Positions 55,801-64,000 of a stretch of 64,000 nt of DNA are shown here, in pieces (the stretch's first letter is position 1; each line of letters begins with the position of its first letter). A model generated the notes under the pieces. It ran no database searches, had not been told where the DNA came from, and worked only from the letters and a program-made list of their open reading frames with translations. The position numbers and the translations under genes are program-made. Source of the stretch: Gimesia sp. (GTDB taxonomy: Bacteria > Planctomycetota > Planctomycetia > Planctomycetales > Planctomycetaceae); NCBI RefSeq assembly GCF_040219335.1, contig NZ_JAVJSQ010000029.1:434001-498000 (forward strand). The letters are read 5' to 3'.

Positions 55801-56604
55801 CTAAACCTGTTTTTTGCGGCTGGTCCAACTGTCTTGTGAATATTTTTCTTTTTCCAGTGTACGGGCTCGCAGGGATTCTTCGTCAGTCAGGTTTCCAGAC
55901 TGGAGCGGTAATTTTAATGCTGTCGAAATTGCCTGTGAGAAGTCTGAGGTGAGCGCGTTGAGAAATTCTTCACTGTAGCGACCGGGTTGCTCAACCAGAT
56001 TCAAAAGTCCGGGAAATTCGGGAGCGTACTCTGAGGTCAACAGGAGCAGGCTGCCATGCTGAACGATGGCCCCTCGCCGGCGTCGCTGTGCACTCCCCAG
56101 TATTTTCTGGCCCTGGTACACCAGATCCCTTTCATCTCCACGTCCAAAACAGAGAAATGGTTCTGAGGCGGAACGGTATGTAATTCCCCGGAATTCTACA
56201 TTCAGACCATGTGCCGCCAGTACTTCGATTAGAGGCTGGTGGATGGCGATATACAACTCTGGTGGTGATTTGGCGAGAGGGTGATTGGCGGGTACTGTAA
56301 ATGAGTAAGTCAGCTCATGATGATGTAAAATCGCACCTCCGCCTGAAAGGCGACGGACACGAGGGAGTCCTTCCCAGGGCCCCTGTTGAGCGTCGTTGTC
56401 ATTCTGCTGAAAGTAACCCAGAGAGATCGTTGCCTGATCCCAGCGGTACCAGCGTAGCGAGCAGACCTGGTCTGACACGGCTGATTCCAGCAGGGATTCA
56501 TCCACAGCCATATTCCAGCTTCCCGGCTGGGGGGCTGGTTCATTGAGCAGTCGACAGTGATCTGGAAGAGGAGAAGCTGTCATGCCGGGAAGCAGTTCAT
56601 TCAA
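55801..56604 (-). CDS. lipM: Octanoyltransferase LipM-like (lipoate ligase family)
   Basis: 267-residue protein of the biotin/lipoate A/B ligase family. RRLSGGGAILHHHELTYS is the substrate-binding motif. Cys152 in PFLCFGRGD falls where Bacillus LipM has its catalytic Cys, and QGQKILGSAQRRR...IVQHGS with Lys167 follows in the same spacing. LipM moves octanoyl from ACP to GcvH. Alternative: a lipoate-protein ligase. It lies directly after gcvPB (24 bases), as lipM (yqhM) lies close to gcvPB in Bacillus, which supports the call. Confidence 0.82.
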   Translation of the reverse strand: MNELLPGMTASPLPDHCRLLNEPAPQPGSWNMAVDESLLESAVSDQVCSLRWYRWDQATISLGYFQQNDNDAQQGPWEGLPRVRRLSGGGAILHHHELTYSFTVPANHPLAKSPPELYIAIHQPLIEVLAAHGLNVEFRGITYRSASEPFLCFGRGDERDLVYQGQKILGSAQRRRRGAIVQHGSLLLLTSEYAPEFPGLLNLVEQPGRYSEEFLNALTSDFSQAISTALKLPLQSGNLTDEESLRARTLEKEKYSQDSWTSRKKQV

Positions 56605-56628
56605 GAATACAACAAGCGGGTCGTTTTG

Positions 56629-58098
56629 TTATTCCGACTCGCAGCATTGGAGAATTGGATTACGCGCCGCAACCACTTCGTCTGGTCGACTGACGTCTGT
56701 AGAGTGCGGAGCCTGATGGATGAACTCGGGATCTTCCTGCAGGATTTTAACAATCGTCTCAGCGAAGGCATCCAGAGTCTCTTTGGATTCTGTTTCGGTC
56801 GGCTCAACCATGATGGCTTCGGGCACTACCAGTGGGAAGTAGACTGTGGGAGCATGGAAACCAAAATCAAGCAGCCGCTTGGCGATGTCCATGGCTGTGA
56901 TTCCATTGGCTGCTTTGCTTTTGGACGCGGAGGCCACGAACTCATGCATGCACAGATCACCGTTGGGAACAGGCAGTACGTCTTTGAGCAGGGCCTTGAG
57001 GTAATTCGCGTTCAAGACCGCATTTTCAGAAACCGCTTTTAATCCTGCTGCACCCAGTGTGCGCAGATAGCAGTAGCCCCGTACCAGAATGCCGATGTTG
57101 CCGTAGAAGGAGCGGACACGACCGATTGATTTGGGTGGTGTTACAAGCTGGTATGCTTCGCCTTCTTCAGCGGAAGTATCATGGCTGATGACGGGGCCGG
57201 GGAGGAAGTCGGCCAGGAAGTCACGAACGGCGATTGGACCGGAACCAGGTCCACCTGCTCCGTGAGGACCAGTGAAGGTTTTATGCACATTGAAATGCAT
57301 CATGTCGCCGCCAAAGTCTCCCGGACGGGTATAGCCCAGGATCGCGTTCATATTGGCACCATCAATGTAGACCAGGCCGCCTACGTCGTGAACCATCTGA
57401 GCGATCTGTTTAATGTCTTTCTCGAACAGTCCCAGTGTGTTGGGGTTGGTGACCATGAAAACGGCGGTCTGATCATCCAGGTGTGATTTCAGATCTTCCA
57501 GGTCGACCAGTCCCTCTTTACTGCTGGCCAGCTGGACACAGTCAAAACCTGCGATTGCGGCACTGGCCGGGTTGGTGCCGTGAGCACTGTTGGGGAACAG
57601 AACCTTGGTTCGTTTTTCCCCTTTGTCCTCAAAGTAGGCTTTCGCTGTCAGCAGGGCAGTGAATTCTCCCTGGGCACCAGCGGCTGGCTGCAGGGAAACC
57701 GCAGGTAGTCCTGAGATTTCTGCCAGCATTTCCTGCATCTCATAAAGCAGACCGAGCATGCCCTGCAGGTCAGCCTGATTCTGGTAGGGATGCAGGTCGA
57801 CGATTCCGGGCAGACTGGAAAGCCGTTCGTGTCGCTTGGGGTTGTATTTCATCGTACAACTGCCCAGCGGATAAAAGTGAGTGTCCACACACATGTTTAA
57901 GGTGGAGAGATTGACAAAGTGCCGAATCACGTCAGATTCGGTGACTTCAGGCAACCCTGTGGGTTCGGTGGCCAGTGCCTGCGCGGGAATCAGCTCTTCA
58001 AGCGGTTTAACTGGAACATCAGCAGCAGGAAACTGCGCACCGCGACGTCCGGGCTGAGAGAGAGCAAATAATGATTGAGTGGCCAGTTTGTTTCGCAT
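56629..58098 (-). CDS. gcvPB: Glycine dehydrogenase (decarboxylating) subunit 2
   Basis: 489-residue C-terminal-half P-protein of the glycine cleavage system, decarboxylating glycine and passing the aminomethyl group to lipoylated GcvH. The PLP lysine is in NVHKTFTGPHGAGGPGSGP; YPLGSCTMKYNPK and YIDGANMNAILGYTRPGDFG are typical. Split P-protein (A+B) is the Bacillus/archaeal form. It follows gcvPA by 65 bases and precedes lipM. Confidence 0.97.
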   Translation of the reverse strand: MRNKLATQSLFALSQPGRRGAQFPAADVPVKPLEELIPAQALATEPTGLPEVTESDVIRHFVNLSTLNMCVDTHFYPLGSCTMKYNPKRHERLSSLPGIVDLHPYQNQADLQGMLGLLYEMQEMLAEISGLPAVSLQPAAGAQGEFTALLTAKAYFEDKGEKRTKVLFPNSAHGTNPASAAIAGFDCVQLASSKEGLVDLEDLKSHLDDQTAVFMVTNPNTLGLFEKDIKQIAQMVHDVGGLVYIDGANMNAILGYTRPGDFGGDMMHFNVHKTFTGPHGAGGPGSGPIAVRDFLADFLPGPVISHDTSAEEGEAYQLVTPPKSIGRVRSFYGNIGILVRGYCYLRTLGAAGLKAVSENAVLNANYLKALLKDVLPVPNGDLCMHEFVASASKSKAANGITAMDIAKRLLDFGFHAPTVYFPLVVPEAIMVEPTETESKETLDAFAETIVKILQEDPEFIHQAPHSTDVSRPDEVVAARNPILQCCESE

Positions 58099-58163
58099 GG
58101 TAGTAGTTATCGCTTCGAAATAATTGACGATTGAAACGGTGAACGCGGAGTCGAGCGTCGCGT

Positions 58164-59519
58164 TTATGCCTTGAGTGCGGTCACCAGGCGATCAATTTCT
58201 TCCCGGGTGCGCTGTTCTGTGATCGCTACCAGTACGGCGGTTTGATAGCTTTCTGGATTATTTTCAAAGGTAAAGCGGGAAAGCTCCGGTCCCAGATCGA
58301 AGCCTGCCTGACGCGCTTTTCGCAGCAGAAAGTCAGCTCCTTCCGAACAACTGACGGCAAACTCTTTGAAGAAGGGACGCACAGGAAAGAGCAGTTCAAT
58401 ACCTTCCACACTCGAAAGTTGGTCTGCTGCGTAGTGAGCTTTCTGGCAGGAAAGTTCAGCGACTTCCCGGATGCCCTGTTTACCCAGCAGGGAGAGATAG
58501 ACGGCAGCCCGGATTGCAATCAGTCCCTGGTTACTGCAGATGTTACTGGTTGCTTTGTCGCGACGAATATGCTGCTCGCGTGCCTGGAGATTTAAAACAT
58601 AACAGCGTTTACCGTTGCGGTCGACCGTCTGGCCAATCAGACGACCAGGCATGCGGCGGACGAATTTCTCACTGCAGGAGAACAGGCCCAGATAGGGGCC
58701 ACCAAATTGCAGAGGAGTGCCCAGTGACTGACCTTCGGCGATCGCGATATCGGCTCCATAGTCGCCGGGACGACTCAGGATTCCAAGGCTGATTGGATCG
58801 TAGGAAACTACAGAGAGTGCTCCGTAGCGATGTGCGATCTCGGTCAGCTCAGCAGCTTCTTCCAGAGTACCGAAGAAGTTGGGATGTTGAATGACCAGGC
58901 AAGCGGTCTGATCATCCATGGCTGCGTCGACATCGGCAGGATCGACAGAACCGTCTTTGCAGGGAACGATCACCACTTCGCAGTTGAGGTGTTTCAGATA
59001 GGTTTCCACGACCTGTCGATATTCCGGGTGCAATGATCCAAGCAGGACAACCCGATTGTGTCGATTCGTGACCCGCATTGCCATGAAGGCGGCTTCACTG
59101 ACACAAGTTCCCCCCTCGTACAGGCTCGCATTGGAAACGTCCATGCCAGTGAGCTGGCAGATCAGAGACTGGAATTCGAAGAAGGTCTGCAGGCTTCCCT
59201 GACTGGCTTCAGCCTGATAGGGAGTGTAAGCGGTGTAAAACTCACCCCGACGGGCAATTTCATCAACGGCTGCCGGCACAAAATGGTCATAGGCTCCACC
59301 GCCCAGCATGCAGACGCGGTCCGCGGGACCGACATTCTGACTGGCCAGTTTAGAGAAGTGCGCCTGCAGTTCCATTTCTGTCAGAGCAGGGGGGAGATCC
59401 AGAGGGCGATCCAGTCGCAGGTCTGATGGAATGGTTGAGAACAGGGCTTCCAGTGAGTTGACGCCGATGGTCTGCAGCATCTGTTGCTGCTGTTCTGGTG
59501 TGTTGAAGAGATAAGACAC
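58164..59519 (-). CDS. gcvPA: Glycine dehydrogenase (decarboxylating) subunit 1
   Basis: 451-residue N-terminal-half P-protein. Typical: MLQTIGVNSLEALFSTIP, CMLGGGAYDHFVPAAVDEI, FYTAYTPYQAEASQGSLQ and DVSNASLYEGGTCVSEA. It pairs with GcvPB. Upstream (on the minus strand) the gcvH gene is 188 bases away with a hairpin in between; gcvT is not in the window and must be elsewhere or missing. Confidence 0.97.
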   Translation of the reverse strand: MSYLFNTPEQQQQMLQTIGVNSLEALFSTIPSDLRLDRPLDLPPALTEMELQAHFSKLASQNVGPADRVCMLGGGAYDHFVPAAVDEIARRGEFYTAYTPYQAEASQGSLQTFFEFQSLICQLTGMDVSNASLYEGGTCVSEAAFMAMRVTNRHNRVVLLGSLHPEYRQVVETYLKHLNCEVVIVPCKDGSVDPADVDAAMDDQTACLVIQHPNFFGTLEEAAELTEIAHRYGALSVVSYDPISLGILSRPGDYGADIAIAEGQSLGTPLQFGGPYLGLFSCSEKFVRRMPGRLIGQTVDRNGKRCYVLNLQAREQHIRRDKATSNICSNQGLIAIRAAVYLSLLGKQGIREVAELSCQKAHYAADQLSSVEGIELLFPVRPFFKEFAVSCSEGADFLLRKARQAGFDLGPELSRFTFENNPESYQTAVLVAITEQRTREEIDRLVTALKA

Positions 59520-59642
59520 GGTTCACTCAATCATAAATGTAGAGGGTGATGATAGCTGAAGCTTCAGCCTGAGGGTTTATAGTAGGGCTGGATATATTGG
59601 TAATCTGTTTTTTCCAATTTGCCACGAAATCATGATCCGAAA

Positions 59643-59667
59643 GGCAGGCTGTCTATTTCAGCCTGCC
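59643..59667 (-). terminator. Hairpin downstream of gcvH
   Basis: A perfect 9-bp stem (59643-59651 with 59659-59667, 7-base loop) lies 40 bases past the gcvH stop. Only a short TTTC follows on the minus strand. It may partly end the gcvH message before gcvPA, letting gcvH be made in excess. Confidence 0.5.
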
Positions 59668-59707
59668 GCAGTGGAATGCAGGAAGATTGCCGGTGGTGGA
59701 GCAACTC

Positions 59708-60094
59708 TCAGTGCGCTTCGGATTCGCAGAATTTTTTGTATTCGTCTGCATCCATGAATTGTTCGAGCTCAGCCGGGTTGGACATTTTGATTTTAGTAAT
59801 CCAACCGGTGCCAAACGGATCGTCAGAAAGCGGAGCCTGATCATCAACCAGTGATTCGTTGACTTCTGCAATTTCTCCACTGACGGGTGAGTAGAGGTCA
59901 CTGACTGCTTTAACGCTCTCGACTTCGCCGAAAACTTTTCCTGCTTCGCAGGTTGAGCCAACTGCTGGCAGGTCAATATAGACCAGGTCGGTTAACTGAT
60001 TGACGGCGAAATCCGTGATTCCTACTGTTGCCAGTTCGCCTTCAACGCCGACCCATTCGTGAGTTTTTGTAAATTTTAAATTGGCCTGATCCAT
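59708..60094 (-). CDS. gcvH: Glycine cleavage system H protein
   Basis: 128-residue lipoyl carrier of the glycine cleavage system; it shuttles the aminomethyl group between P, T and L proteins. FTKTHEWVGVEGELATVGITDFA and GEVESVKAVSDLYSPVSGE show the family, with lipoyl-Lys62. The ATG at 60092-60094 is chosen; the frame extends upstream to 60166 but those residues are not H-protein-like. Its leader region (60095-60382) looks structured. Confidence 0.96.
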   Translation of the reverse strand: MDQANLKFTKTHEWVGVEGELATVGITDFAVNQLTDLVYIDLPAVGSTCEAGKVFGEVESVKAVSDLYSPVSGEIAEVNESLVDDQAPLSDDPFGTGWITKIKMSNPAELEQFMDADEYKKFCESEAH

Positions 60095-60382
60095 GATCGT
60101 AAAACCCTCTGTGTAAGTTCTTTTTCCCAGAAATTGAACAGCGGAAATCTGGAAAAAAGAGGTCAAAAAATCCCTGATATCTCTCTGTTGACGATACAGA
60201 GATTTGATCCATTTGAAAAGGATTCAGTGAGGGAAATTCTACGACTACTGAGGACTATCTTGTAGAGGCCACGGAAGAGTCTCACAGGTGAAACCTGCCG
60301 CAGGATGGTGATTTCCGAAGGTTGGATGGACACAGGCGACGGGCGCAAGCAGAACCGGTGAAAACCCTGTCCGCTGCGCTGC
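60095..60382 (-). other. Structured-looking leader between rpiB and gcvH
   Basis: This 288-base region contains nested inverted repeats: GTGAG (60227-60231) with CTCAC (60281-60285), enclosing TCTAC (60238-60242) with GTAGA (60262-60266); the palindrome CCTGC-C-GCAGG (60294-60304); CAGG-CCTG (60285-60297); and GGACACAGG (60328-60336) with CCTGTCC (60366-60372). It does not fit the glycine riboswitch consensus on either strand. An unknown RNA element or overlapping terminators are possible. Confidence 0.4.
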
Positions 60383-60847
60383 CTAGGATTCTTCGTGAGG
60401 ATGCATGGTCTCTTCTTCGACCTTGTGGAGTTTTTCCAGTCGACGTGCGTGCCGGCCCCCCTCAAATTCTTCCTTAAGCCAGATTTCTACCATGCGATTG
60501 ACAAGCCGGTCCCCCAGCAGGTCGGCTGAAAGGCAAAGAACGTTGGAATCGTTATGCAGGCGGCTCATTTGGGCAGTGATGTCGTCGTGACACGGTGTCG
60601 CCCGGACTCCCGGAAATTTGTTGGCTACGATGCACATGCCCATGCCGGTACCACAGATCAGAATTCCCCGATCTATGGACTTGTCGCCGATGGCTTTTGC
60701 CACTTTCACTGCGTAGTCAGGGTAGTCGACGCACTCTCCATCTTCCGGGCCATAATCGTAAGCGACATGTCCCAACTGGTTAAGGAGTGTGAGGATCTTG
60801 GCTTTGGTGGAGAATCCCCGGTGATCGCTGGCAACTGCAATTTTCAT
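60383..60847 (-). CDS. rpiB: Ribose-5-phosphate isomerase B
   Basis: 154-residue RpiB, interconverting ribose 5-phosphate and ribulose 5-phosphate. MKIAVASDHRGFSTK is the typical start, catalytic Cys65 lies in ILICGTGMGM, and ANKFPGVRATPCHD plus LHNDSNVLCLSADLLG follow. It lies 302 bases downstream of the YrdC-phosphatase fusion on the same strand, the same relative order as ywlC/ywlE/ywlF in Bacillus subtilis. Confidence 0.96.
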   Translation of the reverse strand: MKIAVASDHRGFSTKAKILTLLNQLGHVAYDYGPEDGECVDYPDYAVKVAKAIGDKSIDRGILICGTGMGMCIVANKFPGVRATPCHDDITAQMSRLHNDSNVLCLSADLLGDRLVNRMVEIWLKEEFEGGRHARRLEKLHKVEEETMHPHEES

Positions 60848-61149: not shown

Positions 61150-62256
61150 TCACTCAGGGAGATGGAGTTGAGTGACAATCGTCTTTAAACAGTTTTCAAT
61201 TTCTTGTTTACAGTCTACGTAGCACTGATAGCCACCACCGATCGGGTCTGAAATATCTTTCCCATTGGGTGAGAGCAATCTGACGGTTTCTGCCAGATCG
61301 GGGCGTTCCGCGAGAATCGCGGATCGATGCCCTTGTGTCATCGTATAAAGATGATCGGACTGGTCAAGTAGGCGTTCGGTCAGTGGTTGACTTTCATGAG
61401 CCTGAATATCAATGCCCTGTTCAGCCAGAATCGAGACTCCTTCGGGGCTGGGAGGGGCTCCCATTGCAGCTGCGAGTCCCGCTGAGGCGACAATATAGCC
61501 ACGATCCGACAGTTCATCTTCCTGGCAGCCCAGTTTATCAGAGAGCAGTTTTCGGAACAGGCCTTCAGCCATCGGGCTTCTGCAGGTGTTTCCTGTGCAG
61601 ACGAACAGATAGATTTCGCTGGAAAGTCGCTTCAGTGTTGTATCGGTGACGACGCCCGGTTGGAGAATGCTCCATTGATTGTCCTTGATAGAGACCAGGG
61701 TAGACTGATCTCCGAAGCGGGATGGGCCATCATCGATCACCAGGGCGATCTGGTCTCCGAACGCCTCAGTCACGGCGTCTGCTGTCTGCAAACGAGCGTC
61801 TTCATTGAGTAGAACCAGTGGTGAAGGAGAGAGCCGCATGGTCTGAAAAATAATCTCATGTGCCGGGGCACGCAGTCTGATACGCTCTGCAGGGCAGATC
61901 TGCTGCTGTACTTCAGTAGGCAACTCAGAGAACAGCGTGTCAGGACCGGGGCGATCGAGTTCCAGTACGACCGGGCCGGGCCAGCAGCGTTTTGAGAGTT
62001 TGCGGGCAATCGGAGGCATTTCCGGCAGATAATCCTGTGCTTCGTCAAAATCTTTGACACAGAGCACCAGCGGATCTGCATTCCCGGCAAGATCTTTAAG
62101 TTTTTGCATGCCATCCGGACTCAAAGCCTGTCCTGCAATGACATAAGCGGTTGCCGTTGGAAACGCAACTAATTCGCCTTTAGCAAGGTACTGGACTGCC
62201 AGATGGATCACATCACGGATATCGTCAGTCTGTTTTAAATTGATCCGTTCGGTCAT
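61150..62256 (-). CDS. Fusion of a degenerate YrdC/Sua5 domain and a YwlE-like phosphatase
   Basis: 368-residue fusion. Residues 10-200 are a YrdC/Sua5-like domain (GELVAFPTATAY, RCWPGPVVLELDRPG, RIRLRAPAH, LVIDDGPSRFGDQSTLVSI, and a LQPG ending). The usual PTETVYGLG is PTATAYVIAG, and the KGRP-NPL loop is LAGNADPL, so threonylcarbamoyl-AMP synthase activity is doubtful. Residues 215-365 are a low-molecular-weight phosphatase with a complete P-loop (Cys220 to Arg226, FVCTGNTCRSPMAEGL) and general acid Asp337 in DISDPIGGG. Thr224 in the P-loop and the DP-x-GG end match Bacillus YwlE, a protein-arginine phosphatase, rather than tyrosine phosphatases. ATG at 62254-62256. Confidence 0.85.
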   Translation of the reverse strand: MTERINLKQTDDIRDVIHLAVQYLAKGELVAFPTATAYVIAGQALSPDGMQKLKDLAGNADPLVLCVKDFDEAQDYLPEMPPIARKLSKRCWPGPVVLELDRPGPDTLFSELPTEVQQQICPAERIRLRAPAHEIIFQTMRLSPSPLVLLNEDARLQTADAVTEAFGDQIALVIDDGPSRFGDQSTLVSIKDNQWSILQPGVVTDTTLKRLSSEIYLFVCTGNTCRSPMAEGLFRKLLSDKLGCQEDELSDRGYIVASAGLAAAMGAPPSPEGVSILAEQGIDIQAHESQPLTERLLDQSDHLYTMTQGHRSAILAERPDLAETVRLLSPNGKDISDPIGGGYQCYVDCKQEIENCLKTIVTQLHLPE

Positions 62257-62634: not shown

Positions 62635-63420
62635 ATGGCTCCATTAAGTTCTCCCCAAAAAAATAATCCAAAGCGGCAACGCCTCAAACAATCCATTCGC
62701 TCACTGATCGAATTTCGTGGTGCTTCTGAATTGGATCAGAACCAGTTTCAGTCGACTGCTCGGAAATTATATGACGGTCCGGCAGGAGCAGTGCTCTATC
62801 TGGCCAGTAAACTATCACTGCATGATCCTCTGGTAGGGCGGATTCTCAAAACTCGTCGTTTCGATGTGACCGAGTTTCGGAATATCCTGGATATCGGCGC
62901 TGGTGCCGGACAGATTTTGGGACATCTGCTGCGGGAAACGCATCCCGAAGCAAGATTAGTCGCCTGTGATCTCTCACACCAGATGTTGAAACGGGCGCGA
63001 ACCCGTATGGGAAGTCCACGTCCGGATTATCTTTCAGCAGATTTGACCTGTCTGCCATTTCAGGATGAATCTTTTGACTGTGTTACCTGTGGCTGGGTGC
63101 TGGAATACTTGACGGATCCCCGCCATGGCCTGTCAGAAATTCACCGTGTTCTGCAGCCCGGTGGCAGCCTGTTTCTGATGGCTACCGAAGATCGTCTGTC
63201 CGGAATGCTCAACAGTGCAACCTGGAAGTGCAAAACCTATAATCGGATTGAGCTCCAGCAGGCCTTCGAAGAGACCGGGCTGCCCTGGAAAGAGCAGCAC
63301 TGGTTCACACCGATCCATCAGTTCCTGAAACTGGGCGGAATCATTGTCGAAGCGACTAAACCGCTGGAGGCTTCTGAAGAACTTACAGCAGATACCGTTT
63401 CCGCGACAACTCAGTCCTGA
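62635..63420 (+). CDS. Class I SAM-dependent methyltransferase (UbiE/Methyltransf_11 type)
   Basis: 261-residue methyltransferase. Motif I is ILDIGAGAGQ (Asp86), motif II-like LVACDLSHQML, then DYLSADLTCLPFQDESFDCVTCGWVLEYL and EIHRVLQPGGSLFLMATED, the usual order for small-molecule methyltransferases. The substrate is not evident; it does not show UbiE/MenG hallmark sequence. An extra N-terminal segment of about 80 residues precedes the core. The stop overlaps the converging gene by 10 bases. Confidence 0.87.
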   Translation: MAPLSSPQKNNPKRQRLKQSIRSLIEFRGASELDQNQFQSTARKLYDGPAGAVLYLASKLSLHDPLVGRILKTRRFDVTEFRNILDIGAGAGQILGHLLRETHPEARLVACDLSHQMLKRARTRMGSPRPDYLSADLTCLPFQDESFDCVTCGWVLEYLTDPRHGLSEIHRVLQPGGSLFLMATEDRLSGMLNSATWKCKTYNRIELQQAFEETGLPWKEQHWFTPIHQFLKLGGIIVEATKPLEASEELTADTVSATTQS

Positions 63421-64000
63421 TAACGGACCTGACTCCAGTCTTTTGCCAGTTCACAGAGTGTTTTTAACGTCTCTGGATTGGCGCTGCAGGCGGTGATACC
63501 GGGCAGACGCAGCATGTCAGCCCGCTCGTCGAGCCAGTGTTCGTGAAAGTTGACCGGTTCGCCATTGTGTACCCAGACCGCATCGCCACCCAGAATGCGG
63601 GCGATGTGCAGTGAGACCGGAAAGTCGTAGACATTCGGGGTGTGGATCAGCGAACCGCCAAAGGCCCCTGTTGCCAGGTGGTCGTAGATACTGCCTGGCA
63701 TTTCATCCGGTGGGACTCCCTGCAGTCCGGTTTCGGTCACCAATCGGGCGTTCGATGTATCTTTATCCTGGAAGCCGATCAGGTAGATGCGTGGTGAATC
63801 GGGGCGGGTCTGAGGATCGATGACAGGCATCGCATCCAGCACTTCCCGGGCGGGGCGGCTCAGGTCATCTGGACCACAGATCACTTTTTTGTGTACTGCT
63901 TCTACCCAGGTGCCCTGTTCTCCTGTTTCCGGAATATAAACCAGTGAATAGTGGACTGTTTCACTATCGCGCAGATGAACCATGACACAGTAACCGTTGG
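63411..64000 (-). CDS. Partial gene, possible inositol monophosphatase-like protein
   Basis: At least 196 residues of a protein whose N-terminus lies beyond the window edge; reading stays open to position 64000. HYSLVYIPETGEQGTWVEAV followed by RLVTETGLQGV, TGAFGGSLIHTPNVYDFPVSLHIARILGGDAVW and ITACSANPETLKTLCEL resemble the C-terminal half of inositol-monophosphatase-family enzymes (strand, Gly-rich turn, acidic-to-hydrophobic DFP-VSLHIARILGG), but the metal-binding N-terminal motifs are out of view. Function therefore tentative. It converges on the methyltransferase gene. Confidence 0.55.
   Translation of the reverse strand, partial: NGYCVMVHLRDSETVHYSLVYIPETGEQGTWVEAVHKKVICGPDDLSRPAREVLDAMPVIDPQTRPDSPRIYLIGFQDKDTSNARLVTETGLQGVPPDEMPGSIYDHLATGAFGGSLIHTPNVYDFPVSLHIARILGGDAVWVHNGEPVNFHEHWLDERADMLRLPGITACSANPETLKTLCELAKDWSQVRYQD

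Follow-up and report, generated by a model that had tools for sequence, protein, structure and literature searches.

A putative phospho-arginine phosphatase fused to a degenerate TsaC domain in the planctomycete Gimesia

In Bacillus subtilis, the arginine kinase McsB and the phosphatase YwlE control the stability of TsaD, the enzyme that follows TsaC in the synthesis of the tRNA modification t6A. They do so via phospho-arginine and ClpCP, and t6A and arginine phosphorylation are thereby already linked in Bacillus (PMC7546277). A threonine at position PX5 of the P-loop selects phospho-arginine in YwlE and PtpB (PMC8001253). On the t6A side, mutational work on the yeast threonylcarbamoyl-AMP (TC-AMP) synthase Sua5 shows that its conserved residues are required (PMC10321239). 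Here we describe a protein of Gimesia sp. that joins a TsaC-like half and a YwlE-like half in one chain. It is quite probably a phospho-arginine phosphatase that derives from an ancestral fusion of two enzymes, of which the TsaC half has been inactivated: it became redundant beside Sua5, lost its catalytic residues and would now be a scaffold or docking arm.

Architecture of the fusion protein and its genome

The window (the whole stretch of 64,000 nucleotides that was analysed) belongs to a genome of 7.93 Mb in 45 contigs. It contains an ORF of 368 residues with an ATG start (61150–62256, reverse strand, as are all other features of the window given below), which consists of a degenerate YrdC/TsaC half followed by a putative YwlE-type arginine phosphatase half. 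Two Pfam models match it well above cut-off, PF01300 (Sua5/YciO/YrdC) at residues 23–201 with 75 bits and PF01451 (low-molecular-weight, LMW, phosphatase) at residues 217–359 with 84 bits. The AlphaFold2 model is confident (pLDDT 96.2, pTM 0.89) and has nearly no linker between the halves. The N-terminal half (residues 13–205, 61642–62220) is predicted to fold like Sua5 and superimposes on the P. abyssi Sua5 structure with a Z-score of 25.4 and an rmsd of 2.2 Å over 202 residues. The nearest solved structures of the C-terminal half (residues 216–364, 61165–61611) are those of YwlE (PDB ids: 4etn, 4kk3 and 4kk4, Z-score ~24.5). A sequencing or annotation artefact was rejected, as the ORF is open in ten genomes of the same genus and its omega is low.

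The N-terminal half appears catalytically dead when its sequence is aligned to that of P. abyssi Sua5. The initial annotation had claimed that the PTETVYGLG and K-x-R-P motifs of TC-AMP synthases were lost, and the alignment bears this out. The first motif has become PTATAYVIA (within FPTATAYVIA, residues 32–41, 62134–62163), K-x-R reads A57-G-N59 (62080–62088) and S-x-N reads N151-E152 with a deletion (61801–61806), both of these loops being shortened. The substrate-binding arginine of Sua5 (R195 in P. abyssi) is replaced by Q199 (61660–61662). PMC10321239 names seven substrate-binding positions (T33, K56, R58, S143, N145, S181 and R195, P. abyssi numbering), which correspond to T34, A57, N59, N151, a gap, S185 and Q199. 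Two of the seven catalytic residues (T33 and S181) are kept, and the lysine, both arginines and the serine and asparagine of S-x-N are lost. As read from this alignment, the ATP/pyrophosphate motifs are gone and the threonine side of the pocket partly remains, with T34, T36, Y38, S185 and T186 retained (T33, T35, Y37, S181 and T182 in P. abyssi).

The C-terminal half has both the LMW-PTP fold and the C(X)5R P-loop. The latter was correctly read in the initial annotation as CTGNTCR with Thr224 (C220-T-G-N-T224-C-R226, 61579–61599), which places Thr at PX5. The general-acid loop DPIGG carries Asp337 (61234–61248), and D337 and P338 are invariant in 121 fusions. The prediction of a phospho-arginine phosphatase, also made in the initial annotation, is well supported by the PX5 Thr (PMC8001253), by YwlE as the closest structures and by the presence of McsB, McsA-like and ClpC proteins in the genome. 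Thr occupies PX5 in 166 of 195 fusions, including 81 of the 86 with low scores for the TsaC catalytic residues (in two of the remaining five the P-loop was not read). Some intact fusions (L151, L168, L172, L179, L155, L178, L199 and L200) have Leu or Ile at this position (CTGNLCR, CTGNICR), as tyrosine phosphatases do, and their specificity may differ from that of the Thr-bearing majority. In family f60 (L152, L154, L157 and L167), the P-loop is CTGNTDR or CAGNTDR, with Asp in place of the second cysteine. This cysteine is thought to be important for redox control.

The genome encodes what both pathways would need. PF01300 is found at three places: in a canonical Sua5 of 324 residues with a SUA5 domain (contig 10), in a long, HypF-sized ORF and in the fusion. 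There is one McsB, the best PDB matches of which are McsB arginine kinases (E 1e-86), an McsA-like zinc-finger/UVR protein and ClpC, as well as TsaD and a TsaB-like protein. Because of these proteins and the separate Sua5, the arginine-phosphorylation and t6A sets are full even if the fusion's YrdC half is left out of account. Both the second TsaC/Sua5 and the McsB-type kinase had been singled out in the initial annotation as genes to look for, and the lack of any other TsaC, named there as an argument against its reading, is not what the genome presents. The McsB, McsA-like and ClpC genes (L004, L296 and L297) lie at three separate places, on contigs 30, 4 and 10. Downstream of the fusion is its conserved neighbour rpiB (ribose-5-phosphate isomerase B, 60383–60847, PF02502 with 176 bits), and a glycine-cleavage group adjoins the locus (55801–60166), with gcvH, split gcvPA/gcvPB (the GcvP halves are named from sequence) and a lipoate-ligase-like protein. 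An ORF of 190 residues at 63411–63983 has no Pfam match.

Other activities of the two halves are far less probable than those given above. It is hardly credible that the YrdC half, with its altered residues, has remained a working TC-AMP synthase or is a carbamoyltransferase. Its fold and a portion of the threonine pocket are preserved, but the equivalents of K56, R58, S143, N145 and R195 are all gone and loops are deleted, the conserved residues are required in the yeast enzyme (PMC10321239), and a canonical Sua5 is encoded elsewhere in the genome. A C-terminal half that is mainly a phospho-tyrosine phosphatase or an arsenate reductase is very unlikely. The Wzb and ArsC models do match it, at low scores far below their cut-offs; however, PX5 is Thr and not Ile (PMC8001253), the best relatives are YwlE proteins and McsB is found in 187 of 199 Planctomycetota genomes. 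Furthermore, the sole other LMW phosphatase of the genome is a separate ArsC-like protein (L006), whose gene adjoins that of a probable arsenite permease. With sub-cutoff matches only, identity as an arsenate reductase was rejected.

Distribution of the fusion and decay of its TsaC half

The fusion is common in Planctomycetota and nearly always lies beside rpiB. The search matched 184 of 199 genomes of the phylum, mostly with full-length fusions and in a few cases with a separate Sua5 only; at the class level all 119 genomes matched, a few of them solely via a separate Sua5. In a scan of named genomes, the best 80 matches listed were all labelled as planctomycetes or 'bacterium'. Of the 55 fusion loci that have flanks, 52 have rpiB next to the fusion on the same strand. 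The fusion would be an ancestral, phylum-wide two-enzyme protein.

Separate Sua5 proteins, marked by the SUA5 domain (PF03481), are present in 96 of the 119 class genomes and 40 of the 199 phylum genomes. The seven catalytic positions were scored in 195 fusions, which were called intact with at least five of the seven residues and decayed with four or fewer. Of the 93 fusions in genomes with Sua5, 85 are decayed. In genomes without Sua5, 101 of 102 keep at least five residues, and the exception is a fragment at a contig edge (101 of 101 among complete fusions). In some Sua5-less fusions R58 appears lost, yet many of these loops hold a shifted Arg or Lys, and this 'loss', being at least partly an alignment effect, was not counted as decay. 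All 30 members of the family to which the Gimesia fusion belongs have Sua5 and keep zero to two residues. Nine families hold both states, and the score is lower with Sua5 in seven of them, equal in two and higher in none (sign test, p 0.016). Contrasts at the family level were used because the phosphatase-half tree is too short to resolve independent decay events; poorly resolved as it is, this tree gives 6 supported independent contrasts, with a mean of 3.4 for decay with Sua5 and 0 against.

In 40 Sua5-less genomes, PF01300 is confined to the fusion, except that some have it in one additional long ORF as well. These ORFs are 762–992 residues long (HypF size), apart from one weak sub-cutoff match in a frame of 614 residues, and in about half of the 40 genomes the fusion alone carries PF01300. 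As far as these domain matches go, these organisms have no other candidate for TC-AMP synthase than the fusion, which must be the synthase if they make t6A at all. At the other extreme, four genomes (G260, G272, G261 and G305), all with Sua5, have entirely lost the YrdC half and have kept the phosphatase beside rpiB. Gain of Sua5 does not force immediate decay, since eight Sua5-bearing genomes retain an intact fusion with five to seven of the seven residues (L061, L052, L073, L053, L090, L133, L135 and L136); these are possibly recent gains of Sua5 and lend themselves well to dating the decay.

Since fusions that are the only TsaC of their genome always have an intact YrdC half, the best explanation for the decay of this half in the Gimesia protein is that a second Sua5 made it redundant. 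The N-terminal half would descend from a working TC-AMP synthase. Judging by the motifs, the fusion of the Planctomycetota ancestor would have made TC-AMP for tRNA t6A and dephosphorylated protein arginines, as it probably still does in most of the phylum. In the Gimesia lineage, the presence of a separate full-length Sua5 would have made the TsaC half redundant, after which this half would have lost the residues for ATP binding and catalysis. The YwlE-type phosphatase would continue to counteract the McsB kinase of the genome.

Possible roles of the inactivated half

The dead YrdC half is under purifying selection. Its omega within the genus has a median of 0.090 (range about 0.04–0.13), compared to 0.038 for the phosphatase half and 0.018–0.048 for the intact YrdC halves of family f2. 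Because of this selection and the predicted Sua5-like fold, the half probably has some role, most likely that of a scaffold or docking arm. As such, it would be packed on the phosphatase and might still keep it near the t6A enzymes. A scaffold or docking function is favoured over a sensor because the pocket residues vary between genera and some relatives can dispense with the half, although the four genomes that manage without it count against a scaffold, too.

The initial annotation had proposed a repurposed sensor, i.e. a YrdC fold that binds another small molecule (threonine-like, a nucleotide or RNA) and regulates the arginine phosphatase. Part of this proposal finds support in purifying selection, in the retained threonine-side residues and in the former pocket segments, in which 41 of 60 sites are invariant throughout the genus versus 66 of 133 elsewhere in the half (p 0.019). 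Nevertheless, a sensor is unlikely, as the pocket is not constant among the genera of the family, the domain has been lost outright in four genomes, and packing can account for the conservation that is seen. A broader proposal, also rather unlikely, is that the dead domain is a regulatory module of the phosphatase (a ligand sensor or a dock for TsaD, tRNA or McsB), which would preserve a physical link between t6A and arginine phosphorylation after the enzymatic activity was lost. Progressive decay, the four complete losses and the fact that in several decayed groups the YrdC half evolves faster than the phosphatase would suit a non-functional relic that is being removed. With an omega of about 0.04–0.13 and a confident fold, most amino-acid changes are still purged, and a relic is quite unlikely. 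A scaffold or docking arm is thus the role that we prefer for the YrdC half.

Relation to known systems

The initial annotation regarded the combination of the two domains as undescribed. The fusion turns out to be widespread in the phylum, and no description of it or of its decay pattern was found in the literature searched, which was covered in part. Both halves belong to known families, and the architecture itself is probably in domain databases. No relevant paper on McsB in planctomycetes emerged from literature searches, and PMC10321239 does not name Planctomycetota. The fusion points to a McsB/McsA/ClpC system of arginine phosphorylation in a Gram-negative phylum for which it is hardly mentioned in the literature searched. 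The control of TsaD stability by McsB and YwlE (PMC7546277) offers a reason for joining the TsaC and YwlE activities, and by analogy with Bacillus a TsaC–YwlE fusion would put the eraser beside t6A synthesis. One phylum-wide protein would in this way link the initial step of a universal tRNA modification with the removal of phosphate from protein arginines. Nature has provided an experiment on the reason for the fusion, in that one half has repeatedly decayed wherever the genome has a second Sua5. A word of caution is also due, as proteins of this kind that are annotated as threonylcarbamoyl-AMP synthases can be inactive.

The closest relatives of the Gimesia protein are the intact TsaC–YwlE fusions of other Planctomycetota (e.g. 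L055 and L022), which have the same architecture and the same rpiB-adjoining locus and show 25–54% sequence identity outside the genus. Unlike the Gimesia fusion, they keep T33, K56, R58, S143, N145, S181 and R195 and are the sole TC-AMP synthase candidates of their genomes. With YwlE of Bacillus and Geobacillus (PDB ids: 4kk3 and 4pic), the Gimesia protein shares the fold, the CTGNTCR P-loop with Thr at PX5, the DP-x-GG acid loop and an McsB in the genome, but YwlE is a stand-alone protein of 150 residues, whereas the fusion adds an N-terminal YrdC-fold half with almost no linker. In Bacillus, rpiB lies downstream of ywlE, as it does at the fusion locus. The fold of Sua5/TsaC (P. abyssi, PDB ids: 6f87 and 6f89; T. 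maritima TsaC2) is common to residues 1–213 of the fusion (Z-score 25, rmsd 2.2 Å), which differs from these proteins in that it lacks the SUA5 domain and the ATP- and pyrophosphate-binding residues and carries a phosphatase. Lastly, the YrdC half resembles YciO, a TsaC paralogue that does not replace TsaC in vivo. However, YciO mostly retains the active-site residues of TsaC and its surface carries a basic patch (PMC12506659), whereas the YrdC half of the Gimesia protein has lost these residues and forms one chain with a phosphatase.
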